A stretch of DNA of 26,350 bases from a virus: the IMG/VR virus record IMGVR_UViG_3300045454_000042, positions 1 through 26,350 of that record; one strand, given 5' to 3'. Positions 922-13,590 of the stretch are shown here, piece after piece. The translations under genes and the position numbers were made by a program. How positions within the stretch are numbered: position 1 is the first letter of the stretch; each line of letters starts with the position of its first letter. The notes beneath the pieces are model-generated. The model saw nothing but the letters and a program-made list of their open reading frames with translations. It did not search any database and was not told where the DNA came from.

Positions 922-1158
922 ATGTTGCGCATCATGACCCAAAGGCGGTCACAAGTGGGGAAGGACCGCCTCAAGACGGCAGCCGAGGTGCGTGCCGACC
1001 TCGACCGCCGAGGCAAGACCATCCGTGAGGCCGCGCGCGAGATCGGCGTCTCCGAGAGAGCGGTCTACGACCTGCTGCGAGGTCGGTTCAAGGGTCGCCG
1101 TGGAGAGGCACACAAGGCAGCCGTCCTGCTCGGAATGAAGCACGGAGTGCTCAAGTGA
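922..1158 (+). CDS. Ner/Cro-like early DNA-binding regulator
   Basis: A 78-residue basic protein. After an N-terminal arm (MLRIMTQRRS) comes a compact helix-turn-helix domain: TAAEVRADLDRRGKTIREAA, then REIGVSERAVYDLLRGRFKG, then RRGEAHKAAVLLGM. This pattern (HTH, then K-G-R-R-G-E/Q-x-H, then a helix ending in LG) is common in small Ner-like regulators that precede Mu-type transposases. In Mu, Ner dampens early and repressor transcription; the same role is inferred here. Possible starts are 922 and 934. The first is preferred because it sits at the predicted transcription start, though no clear ribosome-binding site precedes either. The stop overlaps the GTG at 1155, which suggests coupling to the transposase gene. 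Confidence 0.75.
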   Translation: MLRIMTQRRSQVGKDRLKTAAEVRADLDRRGKTIREAAREIGVSERAVYDLLRGRFKGRRGEAHKAAVLLGMKHGVLK

Positions 1159-3647
1159 GGTACTCGTGCGAGGATCTGAGCGCTGCCCTCGGTGTGACGC
1201 GCGACGCGACCAAGAAGCGTGCCGCCCGCGAACGCTGGCCCTACACCGAACAACCATGCCGCGGCGGCCGCCGCCGGCTCTACGCGCTGGCCGAGCTGCC
1301 GGCGGACGTGGCGGCGGCCCTGCAGAGGCAGCAAGGAGCGAACCATGGACATGCTGGACAAGGACGGCCGGCTGATCGCCTCGATCAAGCGCACGGGCGG
1401 GCAGCGGCCGGGGCGGCCGGTGATGTGGCTGGTGTACTGGGGATTGCAGTACAGCCACCTCGAGCACAAGCACTTCTGGAGCCGACTCGAGGCGCAGGCC
1501 TGGGTGAGATCGGTCGAGCGCCGGCTGCAGCGGCAGGCGCGCCGGCCGGATCAGCAGCTGTCCGACCCGGCGGATCGGCCATGACGGCCACCGGCGGCTG
1601 CGGTGAGCCCCCCCGGGCGGGGGTGCCCTCGCCCGCCTCCCATCCCGGGGCTGCGGCGGCCACCGTGGCGGGGGGGTTCACCGCAGCGGCCGGGCTGGCC
1701 GGCGCCGAGGCGCCGACGGACGCGATCTGGATCGGCACGCTGGTGCCCGAGGGCATGTCGCCTGCAGATGCGGCGGCCGAGCGCACGAGGATGGCGCGGG
1801 TGCAGCGCATCGCGCAGGCGCTGGCGCCGCTGGCGGCGCTGCCCGAGCGCCAGCGCGGGCGGCGCGCGATGGCCGAGGACATCGCCCGCTCGCTGGGCCT
1901 GACGGTGTCGCAGGTGTACCGGCTCGAGGCGCGGGTGCGCGCCGGCGGCCAGGCGGCGCTGGCGCAGCTCGGCGCGCGCGCCGACCGCGGGCGGCGCCGC
2001 CATGTCGTGAGCGAGGCCTGGGAGGCCTGGTGCGCGCAGGCGCACGCGGCGGGCGCCAGCGCGGCGCTGGCCGGCGACGCGGCGCCCAGCGCCGAGACGG
2101 TGGCGCAGACCACGCTGGCGGCCACCGCGGCGCTGGCGCAGGTGGTGCGCGCGGCGTGGGTGGGCGGGGCGCCATCGGCGCGCCAGGCGTGGCTGAAGGC
2201 CAGCGCGGCGCTGGCGCGCCAGGTGATCGAGCGCGGCGCGCCGCAGGCACTCGCCGTGGGGCTGCTGCAGGTGCCATGCCCGCGCGACTGGATCGAGGCC
2301 GAAGGCCGGCAGTACCGCACCGCCGGCCTGGCGCTGCGCGACGCCAAGGGCGCCTACGACCGGCACATCACCCCGGTGGTGCGCAGCGCGGCGGGCTACC
2401 GGCCGGGGCAGCTCGTCTGCGGCGACGTGAGCCCGCTCGACATCCCCGTGCGCCGCCCCGACGGCTCAACAGGGTACGGCCGCATGATCATGTGGCACGA
2501 CTTCGGGTCCAACTGGCTGCAGTGCGACCTGTACCTGGTCGAGCGCGGCGAGGGCATCCGCCGCGAGCATGTGGCGGCCAGCTTCGCCAAGATGTGCGAG
2601 GAGAGCCCCTTCGGCGTGCCCGAGCGGCTCTACCTGGACAACGGCAGCGAGTACAAGTGGGAAGACCTGCTGCTGGCTTGGCACGACTTGGCTGCGCTCA
2701 CCGGGCAGCGCATCGCCGTGGACCTGGCCGTGTACCTGCCCGAGGCGGCGCGGCTGGTGCGCAGCATCCCGTACCACCCGCGCGGCAAGCGCGTCGAGGG
2801 GCAGTTCGGCAACCTGCGGCACTGGCTGGCCTGGTGGTTCGGCTACGTCGGCGGCAACCGGCTGGCGAAGAAGACCGCCAGCCTCGGCCAGGCGCCGGTG
2901 CTGAGCGACTTCGACAGCCTGCGCGACTGGCTGCAGAGGGAGCTGGCGGACTACCACGTCACGCCGCAGGAGAGAGCCGAGCACATGGGCGGCATGAGCC
3001 CGCAGCAGCGGCTGGACTGGCACCTGTCCACCGGCTGGCGCCCGGTGCGCATCGACCGCCACGCGCTGATGCTGGCCTTCGCGCAGCGCGAGGTGCGCAC
3101 CGTCACGCGCGGGGCCATCCGCTGGGCCGGTAGAGAGTACACGGCGGACTTTCTGATGCACGTCGAGGGCCGCGTGCTGGCCGCGCAGCCGCGCGTCTGC
3201 GCGGCCGACCTGGACTATCTGTACGTCTTCGACGCCTCGCGCGGCAGCCTGCAGCGCGGGCAGTTTCTGGGCATCGCCACGCCGCAGCCCATCTACGGCG
3301 TGCTCGACGAGGAGGGCGCGAAGGAGGCCGCGCGCAGGCGCAAGGCCTTCCGCCTGCTCACCGGCGAGCGCGTGGCCGCCGCCGGCGGGCCGCTGGACGA
3401 GGCCGCGCTGGCCGGCACGCGGGCGCAACTGCTCGGCCTGCACAGCACCGTGGAGCGCGCGAGAGCCGCCGCGCAAGAGGTGCAGGTCAGCGCCGAGCAC
3501 CGCCAGATGCTGGCCGCGCGCGCCGAGCTCGAGCACAGCACACGCGTGCTGCTGGCGCAGGCGGATGCCGCGCGCGACGCCGAGAGCCTCTCGCGCCTGG
3601 CGCACGAGACCGAGGACGAGGCCGCGGCACGCGCCGCGGGGTTCTAG
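1155..3647 (+). CDS. Mu-type DDE transposase (MuA-like), long ORF with a nested gene
   Basis: This is the strand-transfer recombinase for integration and replicative transposition. The open frame runs 830 codons from GTG 1155. Residues 1-62 form a MuA domain-I-like winged helix (YSCEDLSAALGV... and CRGGRRRLYALAELP). Residues about 207-275 hold a second helix-turn-helix (AEDIARSLGLTVSQVYRLEA). The catalytic core shows the DDE residues D424 (LVCGDVSPLDIP), D495 (LYLDNGSEYKW) and E548 (GKRVEGQFGN), spaced about as in MuA. A Mu-type beta-barrel region and a charged helical C-terminus follow. MuA has 663 residues, so 830 is long. Residues 64-142 are low-complexity A/G/R sequence with poor third-position G/C, because that stretch is really coding in another frame (1345-1584). 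An ATG at 1581 in this frame overlaps that gene's stop as ATGA and would give a 688-residue protein. Whether one, two or both forms are made is open. Confidence 0.85.
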   Translation: MRYSCEDLSAALGVTRDATKKRAARERWPYTEQPCRGGRRRLYALAELPADVAAALQRQQGANHGHAGQGRPADRLDQAHGRAAAGAAGDVAGVLGIAVQPPRAQALLEPTRGAGLGEIGRAPAAAAGAPAGSAAVRPGGSAMTATGGCGEPPRAGVPSPASHPGAAAATVAGGFTAAAGLAGAEAPTDAIWIGTLVPEGMSPADAAAERTRMARVQRIAQALAPLAALPERQRGRRAMAEDIARSLGLTVSQVYRLEARVRAGGQAALAQLGARADRGRRRHVVSEAWEAWCAQAHAAGASAALAGDAAPSAETVAQTTLAATAALAQVVRAAWVGGAPSARQAWLKASAALARQVIERGAPQALAVGLLQVPCPRDWIEAEGRQYRTAGLALRDAKGAYDRHITPVVRSAAGYRPGQLVCGDVSPLDIPVRRPDGSTGYGRMIMWHDFGSNWLQCDLYLVERGEGIRREHVAASFAKMCEESPFGVPERLYLDNGSEYKWEDLLLAWHDLAALTGQRIAVDLAVYLPEAARLVRSIPYHPRGKRVEGQFGNLRHWLAWWFGYVGGNRLAKKTASLGQAPVLSDFDSLRDWLQRELADYHVTPQERAEHMGGMSPQQRLDWHLSTGWRPVRIDRHALMLAFAQREVRTVTRGAIRWAGREYTADFLMHVEGRVLAAQPRVCAADLDYLYVFDASRGSLQRGQFLGIATPQPIYGVLDEEGAKEAARRRKAFRLLTGERVAAAGGPLDEAALAGTRAQLLGLHSTVERARAAAQEVQVSAEHRQMLAARAELEHSTRVLLAQADAARDAESLSRLAHETEDEAAARAAGF
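1345..1584 (+). CDS. Small unknown protein read in another frame inside the transposase ORF
   Basis: Starts at ATG 1345 with AAGGAG (1333-1338) 6 nt upstream, one of the best ribosome-binding sites in the early region. It encodes 79 residues, beginning MDMLDKDGRLIASIKRTGG and continuing through an aromatic-rich segment (VMWLVYWGLQYSHLEHKHFW) to a basic helix. By hand count 73 of 79 codons end in G or C, against about half when the same bases are read in the transposase frame. The stop overlaps ATG 1581 of the transposase frame (ATGA), the junction style used throughout this operon. It therefore looks like an independent gene between a winged-helix module and the transposase proper. I do not recognise the family. 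Confidence 0.7.
   Translation: MDMLDKDGRLIASIKRTGGQRPGRPVMWLVYWGLQYSHLEHKHFWSRLEAQAWVRSVERRLQRQARRPDQQLSDPADRP
1591..1693. repeat. Near-perfect 24-bp inverted repeat (stem-loop) at the transposase 5' end
   Basis: The left arm 1591-1614 (contains GCTGCGGTGAGCCCCCCC) pairs with the right arm 1670-1693 (contains GGGGGGGTTCACCGCAGC). There is one G-G mismatch and one G-U pair; the 55-nt loop contains a second GGCGGG/CCCGCC pairing. It begins 7 nt after the ATG at 1581 and encodes low-complexity residues, so the DNA or RNA structure may matter more than the peptide. Confidence 0.7.
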
Positions 3648-3740: not shown

Positions 3741-4586
3741 ATGGATTCGACAGAGACCACAGAGCGGCCGGCGGCGAAGGCCGGCAAGGGCGCCGACGTG
3801 CTGCAGGCCTGGGATTCCCAGGCCGCGCAGGGCCTGCGCGAGACCAAGTTCGTGCGCGAGGCGCTCAAGCTCGCGGAGGTCATCCTCACGGCCGATCACC
3901 CCATCGGCGAGCTGGTCGGGCCCGCCGGCACCGGCAAGACCTGCGCCGGCCGCGCCGTGGCGCAGAAGTACCGAGCCCAGCGCATCGTCGCCTGGGAGGG
4001 CATGACGCGCCACCAGCTCGCGGCCGAAGTCGCGCAGGCGCTGGGCCTGGAGGGCGCCGGCGCCGGGCAGCGGCTGCTCGCGACCCGCATCGCGCCGATG
4101 GATGGGCCGCGCCAGCTCGTCGTCGTAGACGAGGCGAACAAGCTCAACTGGCGGGGGCTCGAGGTCCTGAGGTACCTCGCCGACGAGTGCAACCTGGCGG
4201 TGCTGCTTATCGGCACCGAGCTGTACGACCGACAGTTCACCAACAGCCGCACCCGCGAGCTGCTCGACCAGCTTGGCAGCCGTATCGGCGCGAAGCGGGC
4301 GGCCACGCGGCACATGGACCGCGCCGAGACGTACGTACATGTCTTCCGCCCCTTCTTCGGCGACTCGGAAGACCGCGAGCTAGTCACCCGCTTCTGGGAG
4401 GGCTCGCGCCGTGGCAACTTCCGCGAGGCGCGCGAGCTGGCGGCCGAGTGCCGCCGGATCATGGCCGCCAACGCCATGCAGACGCTGACCAGCGCCGTGC
4501 TGGAGCTGGCGCTGAAGTGGATGGCCAACCGCCGCCCGGTGCTGGGCAGCGGCGGGCGGGCGGCGCCCGCCGGGGAGGGTGCATGA
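3741..4586 (+). CDS. MuB-type transposition ATPase
   Basis: An AAA+ ATPase of 281 residues that, by family, binds target DNA and delivers it to the transposase while giving target immunity. Walker A GPAGTGKT is at residues 60-67, Walker B QLVVVDEA at 125-132 (D130, E131), and a strand ending in a polar residue (LAVLLIGTELY) at about 152-162 fits sensor 1. MuB has 312 residues with an N-terminal helix-turn-helix and about 100 residues before Walker A. Here only 59 precede it, so the MuB-like N-terminal DNA-binding module is reduced or absent. The C-terminal domain carries a basic segment (EGSRRGNFREARELAAECRR). The ATG follows AGAGGG. The next gene starts in the stop (ATGA at 4583), so the two are translationally coupled. 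Confidence 0.87.
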   Translation: MDSTETTERPAAKAGKGADVLQAWDSQAAQGLRETKFVREALKLAEVILTADHPIGELVGPAGTGKTCAGRAVAQKYRAQRIVAWEGMTRHQLAAEVAQALGLEGAGAGQRLLATRIAPMDGPRQLVVVDEANKLNWRGLEVLRYLADECNLAVLLIGTELYDRQFTNSRTRELLDQLGSRIGAKRAATRHMDRAETYVHVFRPFFGDSEDRELVTRFWEGSRRGNFREARELAAECRRIMAANAMQTLTSAVLELALKWMANRRPVLGSGGRAAPAGEGA

Positions 4587-12010: not shown

Positions 12011-13590
12011 GCCAGGAGATTGCCACCCCCACGCGCGGCGGGCCGCGCGCGCTGGCGCACTGGCGATCGCTGGCCAGCCTTACGCCGGCGCGGGTGGGCA
12101 ACATCCTGCGCCGCGCCGCCATGGGCGATGCGCGTGACTACCTGCTGGCCGCCGACGACATCGCCGAGAAAGACCTGCACTACCGCGCCGTGCTGGCCAC
12201 CAGGCGCATGGCGGTAGCGTCGCTGCCCCTCGAAATCCAGCCCGCCGACGAAACCCCAGCCGCGCACAAAGCCGCCGACCTGGTGCGCCAGGCGCTGGCC
12301 GGCCTGCCGATGGGCGAGATTGCCATGCACTTGATGGACGCCGTTGCCAAAGGCTACGCGGCGGCCGAAATCGTCTGGGATACCCGCAAGAATCCATGGC
12401 TGCCCGCGCGCGTGCTGCCGCGCCCGGCGCATTGGTTTACCTGGACGCGCGAGGGCCCGCCCGAGCTGCGGTTGTTGTCCGAGGCGCACCCCTATGCCGG
12501 GCAGGAACTGCCGGCCTCGAAGTTTGTGGTGCATACCCTCTCGAGCACGGGCGCGCCGGTCAATGCCGGCGTCGCGCGCGCGGTGCTGTGGGCCTGGATC
12601 ATCAAGAGCTACGCGCTGCGCGACTGGGCGCGTTTCTGCGAGTTGTACGGCACCCCTATCCGCGTCGGCAAATACGACGCCGGCGCCACCCCGCAGGATG
12701 TGGACGTGCTCAGGGACGCCGTGCTCGGGCTGGGCACCGACGCCGCTGCGGTGATCCCCGCATCGATGGCCGTCGAGCTGGTCGAGGCCGCGGCCAAGAC
12801 CGCCTCGGCCGACCTCTACCAGCGCCTGCTCGAGTATCTGGACCGCGCGGTATCCAAGGCCGTGCTGGGCCAGACGATGACCACCGAGCAGGGCGCATCG
12901 GGCAGCCTGGCGCAGGCGCGCGTGCACGACGACGTGCGCCGCGAGCTGATGCGCGCCGACGCCAGCGCGCTGGCGGCCACCCTGCAGCGCGACCTGGTCG
13001 AGCCGATCGTGAGGCTCAACCTGGGCGAGCAGGCGCCGCTGCCGCGGCTGTCCTACCAGGTCAGCGACCCCGAGGACCTGGGCCGGCTCGCCGAGCAACT
13101 TGAGCGCCTGGTCAAGCTCGGCCTGGCCGTGCCGGTGGCGTGGGCGAGGGACAAGTGGGGCATCCCCGAGCCCGACGGCGACGAGCCGCTGCTGGCCGCG
13201 GCCGCGCCGCCGGCAGCGCCGGCGCTGGGCGCGATGGGCGCCGTGCGGACATTGCATGCGACGGGTTTGCGGCCGCTGGCCCTGCCCGAGCCCGCGCCGG
13301 TGGACGCGATGGACGCCCTCGTCGACGAGGCCATGGGCCAGTGGCAGCAGCAGATGGCGCCGGTGCTGGGCCCGCTGGAGCGGCTCTTTGCGCGCGCCGC
13401 CGACGAGGGCTGGAGCGCGGCCGAGCTGATCGCCGCGCTGGCGCCCACCCTGGCGCGGCCCGACGAGGCCCAGCTCACCGAGGCGCTGGCGCGCGCCGCC
13501 TACGTCAGCCGCCTGGCCGGCGTGCACGGGCTCGACGACGCACCCGAGGCCGACCCCGCGGACGACCCCGAGGCCGGCCGTGCCCGATGA
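11989..13590 (+). CDS. Portal protein (Mu gp29-like, DUF935)
   Basis: A 533-residue dodecameric head portal. Family landmarks: the N-terminal LTPARVGNILRRAAMGDARD, EKDLHYRAVLATRRMAVASL, the WDTRKNPWLPARVLPRPAHW strand-rich region, and SYALRDWARFCELYGTPIRV, then the TTEQGASGSLAQARVHDDVR loop typical of DUF935. The C-terminal 110 residues after an Ala/Pro linker form a separate helical domain. The linker holds the in-frame dispersed repeat peptide VRTLHAT at residues 419-425. Start is GTG 11989 inside the terminase end. Interacts with terminase, MuF protein and tail connector. Confidence 0.9.
   Translation: MARASELSQEIATPTRGGPRALAHWRSLASLTPARVGNILRRAAMGDARDYLLAADDIAEKDLHYRAVLATRRMAVASLPLEIQPADETPAAHKAADLVRQALAGLPMGEIAMHLMDAVAKGYAAAEIVWDTRKNPWLPARVLPRPAHWFTWTREGPPELRLLSEAHPYAGQELPASKFVVHTLSSTGAPVNAGVARAVLWAWIIKSYALRDWARFCELYGTPIRVGKYDAGATPQDVDVLRDAVLGLGTDAAAVIPASMAVELVEAAAKTASADLYQRLLEYLDRAVSKAVLGQTMTTEQGASGSLAQARVHDDVRRELMRADASALAATLQRDLVEPIVRLNLGEQAPLPRLSYQVSDPEDLGRLAEQLERLVKLGLAVPVAWARDKWGIPEPDGDEPLLAAAAPPAAPALGAMGAVRTLHATGLRPLALPEPAPVDAMDALVDEAMGQWQQQMAPVLGPLERLFARAADEGWSAAELIAALAPTLARPDEAQLTEALARAAYVSRLAGVHGLDDAPEADPADDPEAGRAR
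13243..13263 (+). repeat. Dispersed VRTLHAT repeat, copy 4 (in portal gene)
   Basis: Exact core GTGCGGACATTGCATGCGAC plus G, in frame as Val-Arg-Thr-Leu-His-Ala-Thr, in the linker between the portal core and its C-terminal helical domain. Confidence 0.8.

Follow-up and report, generated by a model that had tools for sequence, protein, structure and literature searches.

The Rz/Rz1 pair of phage lambda consists of embedded spanin genes (PMC6139136). Like the gene described here, its small member is complete and embedded within a larger phage gene, in the +1 frame, where gene callers easily miss it. The proteins and their function are unrelated, however: in our case the nested gene occupies the part of a transposase gene that encodes a disordered linker, and its stop overlaps a start codon that is in frame with the transposase. 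The Mu-like phage Fc02, a transposable Pseudomonas phage, also carries overlapping small genes in its early region (olg1, olg2 and gene 10), of which olg1 and gene 10 have superinfection exclusion activity (PMC9936078). Those genes lie upstream, in the repressor/ner region, rather than within the transposase, and no homology to our gene is shown. Our junctions are of the same types as those of ATGA/TGATG termination-reinitiation pairs (PMC6728339), but the codon at which translation would restart here lies within a gene that is probably also read through, and shares its frame. The transposase itself resembles MuA and its relatives (phrog_310, Mu-transpos_C) in its N-terminal winged helix, linker, helical DNA-binding region, catalytic core and Mu-type C-terminal domain, and in having MuB-like and GemA genes nearby. 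It differs from MuA in that the linker bears a +1-frame gene and a conserved RNA structure; we know of no description of either for MuA. In the open literature that we searched, no Mu-type transposase was described as having an internal start or a nested gene. Genes nested in the +1 frame of a transposase appear to be undescribed, and standard gene callers would miss them.

The window (the whole stretch of DNA analysed, 26,350 nucleotides) is a 26 kb viral contig, IMGVR_UViG_3300045454_000042, which we assign to a Mu-like phage because of its gene content. An XRE-type repressor is encoded upstream of the transposase on the opposite strand, and short tandem repeats (AGCGGGGACA-like) at 735–845, in the gap that separates the repressor from the divergently oriented early genes, are probably operators. 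A small HTH protein with weak Pfam HTH matches occupies a Ner-like position (922–1158, + strand); its TGA and the GTG with which the transposase begins overlap in a GTGA at 1155–1158. Directly downstream of the transposase lies a MuB-like AAA ATPase (3741–4586, + strand; phrog_296, 5e-29; AAA_22), and a GemA homologue is also found downstream.

The transposase ORF (1155–3647, + strand) encodes 830 residues, with matches to phrog_310 (1.4e-46) and to Mu-transpos_C (PF09299, 27.1 bits against a curated cut-off of 21.7). The phrog_310 match falls into two blocks, residues 5–62 (profile 12–73) and residues 209–814 (profile 122–633). In the AlphaFold model of the full chain, a folded winged helix (residues 1–64) is followed by disorder from 65 to 202 and by folded helices from 203. 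The winged helix-turn-helix domain (1155–1346, + strand), already proposed as a module in an earlier note on this DNA, is borne out both by its separate phrog_310 match and by its predicted fold (pLDDT about 75–91 over residues 1–60); it is 42–58% identical to its counterparts in six relatives, whether or not these carry the nested gene. The linker (1347–1580, + strand), which is the other frame over the nested gene, has a pLDDT of about 25 across residues 65–202 and lies outside the phrog_310 match. Residues D424, D495 and E548 are invariant in seven relatives and, by analogy only, are the putative catalytic DDE residues.

Over this linker, in the +1 frame relative to the transposase, an ORF of 79 codons runs from ATG 1345 to TGA 1582–1584 (1345–1584, + strand), with a Shine-Dalgarno sequence, AAGGAG (1333–1338, + strand), 6 nt before its ATG. 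Of its 79 coding codons, 73 end in G or C. The transposase frame over the same stretch is stop-free, rich in A, G, R and P, and has G or C at 37 of 78 third positions; past 1581 it reaches 659 of 689 (96%). The earlier note had drawn attention to the Shine-Dalgarno spacing, the codon bias, the ATGA junction and the low complexity of the transposase frame, with about half of its codons ending in G or C, and each of these held on re-counting. The length of the nested ORF is no proof in itself because this GC-rich transposase gene abounds in long spurious frames, which reach 367 aa elsewhere in it (2030–3133). What lifts the ORF above chance is homology.

Relatives were gathered with alignments of the transposase, the ATPase and the small protein from IMG/VR and bacterial genomes. 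In ten divergent phages or prophages (the window, L004, L013, L022, L120, L041, L121, L122, L037 and L039), a related small ORF stands at the identical position and in the identical relative frame, +1 with respect to the transposase, and all ten copies have a Shine-Dalgarno-like sequence ahead of it. GC3 in the ten copies is 0.81–0.95 in the nested frame versus 0.47–0.57 in the transposase frame of the same stretch. When related nested copies are compared in pairs, most changes fall at nested codon position 3, and amino-acid identity is higher in the nested frame than in the transposase frame. The small protein of the window is 27–38% identical to the six relatives found first. The core that these relatives have in common reads approximately A-S-I-x-R-x-G...P-V-x-W-L-x-Y-W...R-x-E-A and is complete in the closer ones only. 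Carriers of the nested gene include isolate genomes, for example of Pseudomonas thermotolerans, Caldimonas and Tepidicella. Three further homologues stand free in other contexts. The 1345 product is thus conserved and the suspicion of a genuine separate gene was justified: judged by its sequence, 1345–1584 is a real, conserved small-protein gene with predicted translation, probably from its own Shine-Dalgarno sequence and ATG 1345.

In all ten copies the nested stop overlaps or abuts a start codon of the transposase frame, the first two bases of the TGA completing an NTG codon; this codon is ATG, GTG or TTG in nine, and in L121 it is CTG with an ATG directly after. In the window the overlap is ATGA (1581–1584, + strand). 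Stop/start overlap is a signature of termination-reinitiation, and 13 of 14 tested ATGA/TGATG pairs were coupled (PMC6728339). Since translation would restart in the frame of the read-through gene, the extra product would be a transposase without its winged helix; by analogy, ATG 1581 is perhaps the start of such a restarted 688-aa form, which would lack the enhancer-type domain. In MuA, it is the N-terminal region that contacts the enhancer/operator, a site to which the repressor also binds. The enhancer and the repressor/transposase homology of Mu are covered in PMC3820752.

We consider it likely that a pre-existing small gene was inserted into the transposase linker in the +1 phase that keeps the fusion, giving three predicted products. 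A small phage gene would have entered the flexible linker that connects the core of a Mu-type transposase to its N-terminal winged helix, in a phase that left the transposase frame open. The early mRNA would then yield the 830-aa transposase from GTG 1155, the 79-aa basic protein from the Shine-Dalgarno sequence at 1333 and ATG 1345, and, from ribosomes that end at TGA 1582 and restart on ATG 1581, a 688-aa transposase without the winged helix, which on the MuA analogy would be the internal enhancer/operator binder. Such a layout would be a simple way for one gene to supply two transposases, one that keeps and one that lacks the regulatory DNA-binding domain, and it would show that a gene can be inserted into the disordered linker of a protein without destroying the host protein.

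The earlier note had preferred another arrangement, in which winged helix, small gene and transposase are joined only because no stop occurs. The long ORF would then be a high-GC accident, and three cistrons would encode a winged-helix protein, a small protein and, from 1581, a transposase, with the enhancer-binding part acting as a separate subunit. An ATGA, GTGA or TTGA at the transposase restart of nested copies fits this arrangement, as does the linker frame, whose residues (about 64–142) an alignment check found not to be conserved as protein among homologous transposases. Yet in none of the ten copies is the winged-helix frame closed by a stop, which obliges ribosomes that start at 1155 to enter the transposase, and in relatives that lack the nested gene (L036, L012, L019, L020, L040, L043, L044, L008 and L002) the winged helix runs through a short linker straight into the transposase, just as both parts belong to one profile in phrog_310. 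On this comparison, the fusion looks like the ancestral state. The transposase frame is open in ten of ten nested copies, whereas the equivalent frame is stopped in all three free-standing copies, near the 3′ end and no more than a few codons from it. When synonymous codons were re-sampled according to the usage in the transposase of the respective phage, 0.4–2.1 stops per copy were expected in the transposase frame. The joint probability of no stop in ten copies is 3e-6 if they are independent, a value that is too small because nested copies share ancestry, and 0.002–0.07 with one copy per clade; codon shuffles within the ORF did not make the open frame significant for any single copy. As the three-cistron reading emphasizes, +1 frames often stay open in GC-rich genes, and some openness is indeed expected because T is rare at the third position. 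The third frame carries stops in nine of ten copies, so that only the +1 insertion phase generally keeps the fusion. We therefore regard three separate cistrons as unlikely. Since the frame from GTG 1155 has no stop, read-through to the 830-aa protein is predicted and likely, the linker being whatever sequence that frame yields from the DNA of the small gene. A transposase chain that begins at 1581 survives as a plausible restart product, with its overlapping ATG in frame and the junction kept in ten of ten copies; a two-polypeptide transposase might exist alongside the fusion and is less likely to have replaced it.

How the small gene came to lie in the linker is informed by its free-standing homologues, all in non-transposase contexts (L103, L113 and L114). 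Two of them, L113 and L114, are close relatives of the L037/L039 type (62% identical) and sit in ordinary phage gene arrays with no transposase nearby; the third, in L103, is 85% identical to the L004 type and is followed by a different gene. At L103 4001–4267 the small gene adjoins a remnant of about 20 codons of transposase linker; the transposase is gone and the neighbourhood is different. The earlier note had described the gene as overprinted, and it does lie wholly within the transposase ORF, over a linker free of constraint, as an origin de novo would have it. Homologues in other phage contexts make insertion of a pre-existing gene more likely, and the relatives without a nested gene have a much shorter linker, not the same linker minus the ORF; we hold de novo overprinting to be very unlikely. 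The nested copies also stand behind three different winged-helix types, so the small gene appears cassette-like in the linker. That the 1345 frame is untranslated, its GC3 and Shine-Dalgarno sequence being coincidence or the product of a sequencing frameshift, might be argued from a single metagenomic contig with many spurious ORFs in its transposase gene. A frame shared by ten separate contigs or isolate genomes, with homologues outside any transposase and a confidently predicted fold, makes this exceedingly improbable. The two main small-protein types, A4 and A5, matched weakly when their profiles were compared, and their common origin is probable. Matches in G332 and G369 (L111, L112) were weak, with a gene layout that did not correspond, and were dropped.

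AlphaFold predicts strands at residues 2–4, 10–18, 26–32 and 42–44 and a C-terminal helix at 47–66 for the 79-aa protein (pLDDT 85). Its pI is about 11 in the window; the protein is basic in all nested copies and acidic in L113 and L114. No significant family or fold match was found in Pfam, PHROGs, PDB or BFVD, the best Foldseek E-values being 0.9 in PDB and 0.09 in BFVD. Several weak resemblances were set aside: the MMO inhibitory subunit (the best VIA match, Z 6.2), the Tn916 integrase N-domain and dsRBDs (Z 2–4), and families such as PF08857 and phrog_36813 (E 0.03–0.05, judged to be chance). A single small-protein query matched nothing among viral contigs and phages before the family alignment was built, and no copy was found among plasmids. 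The silence of the "phages" collection is uninformative because even the MuB ATPase and the transposase core had no match there. We weakly infer an early accessory or regulatory protein, possibly one that binds nucleic acid.

A separate find beside the nested gene is a conserved structured RNA within the transposase coding sequence (1589–1700, + strand; R1 match 55 bits), which begins 5 nt past the junction TGA. The element recurs at about 20 loci, some with the nested gene and some lacking it, including L004 548–653, L013 4272–4380, L028 608–710 and about 16 others. In the RNAalifold structure 97.2% of cells are paired, against 43–57% when the structure is slid, and both sides have changed in 13 of 32 pairs. 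On the mRNA-sense strand many of the pairs are G-U; columns 24 and 90, for example, form U-G in 16 of 19. No Rfam family was found for the element. Across 151 genomes of the Caldimonas family, strong matches occurred only at two already-known transposase loci, with one weak match in addition; the window has a weak R1 match at 12730–12830 (− strand). L127 and L132 match the pattern without support from the RNA model and were not retained.

The RNA element could tune translation of the transposase. More tentatively, and with the odds against it, the nested gene, the in-frame restart codon and the downstream RNA structure may together form a translational switch. If so, the switch would set the ratio of full-length, enhancer-binding transposase to a short, enhancer-independent one, and the small protein would be a partner or regulator.

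Two other nucleic-acid features were seen in transposase genes of the relatives. Sequence resembling tRNA is read in frame as transposase linker in L002 (about 390–540), L007 (120–214) and L013 (4448–4510), and also in L019, L022, L037 and L039; it has a T-arm, GGTTCGATTCCGGCC, and acceptor-like pairing, and gave an ARAGORN call in L007 and a weak tRNA-Sec match in L013. In L013, L039 and L044, the stretch directly before the RNA element has repeated coding units for ATPDVA with palindromic DNA (CGCTACGCCGGATGTAGCG).
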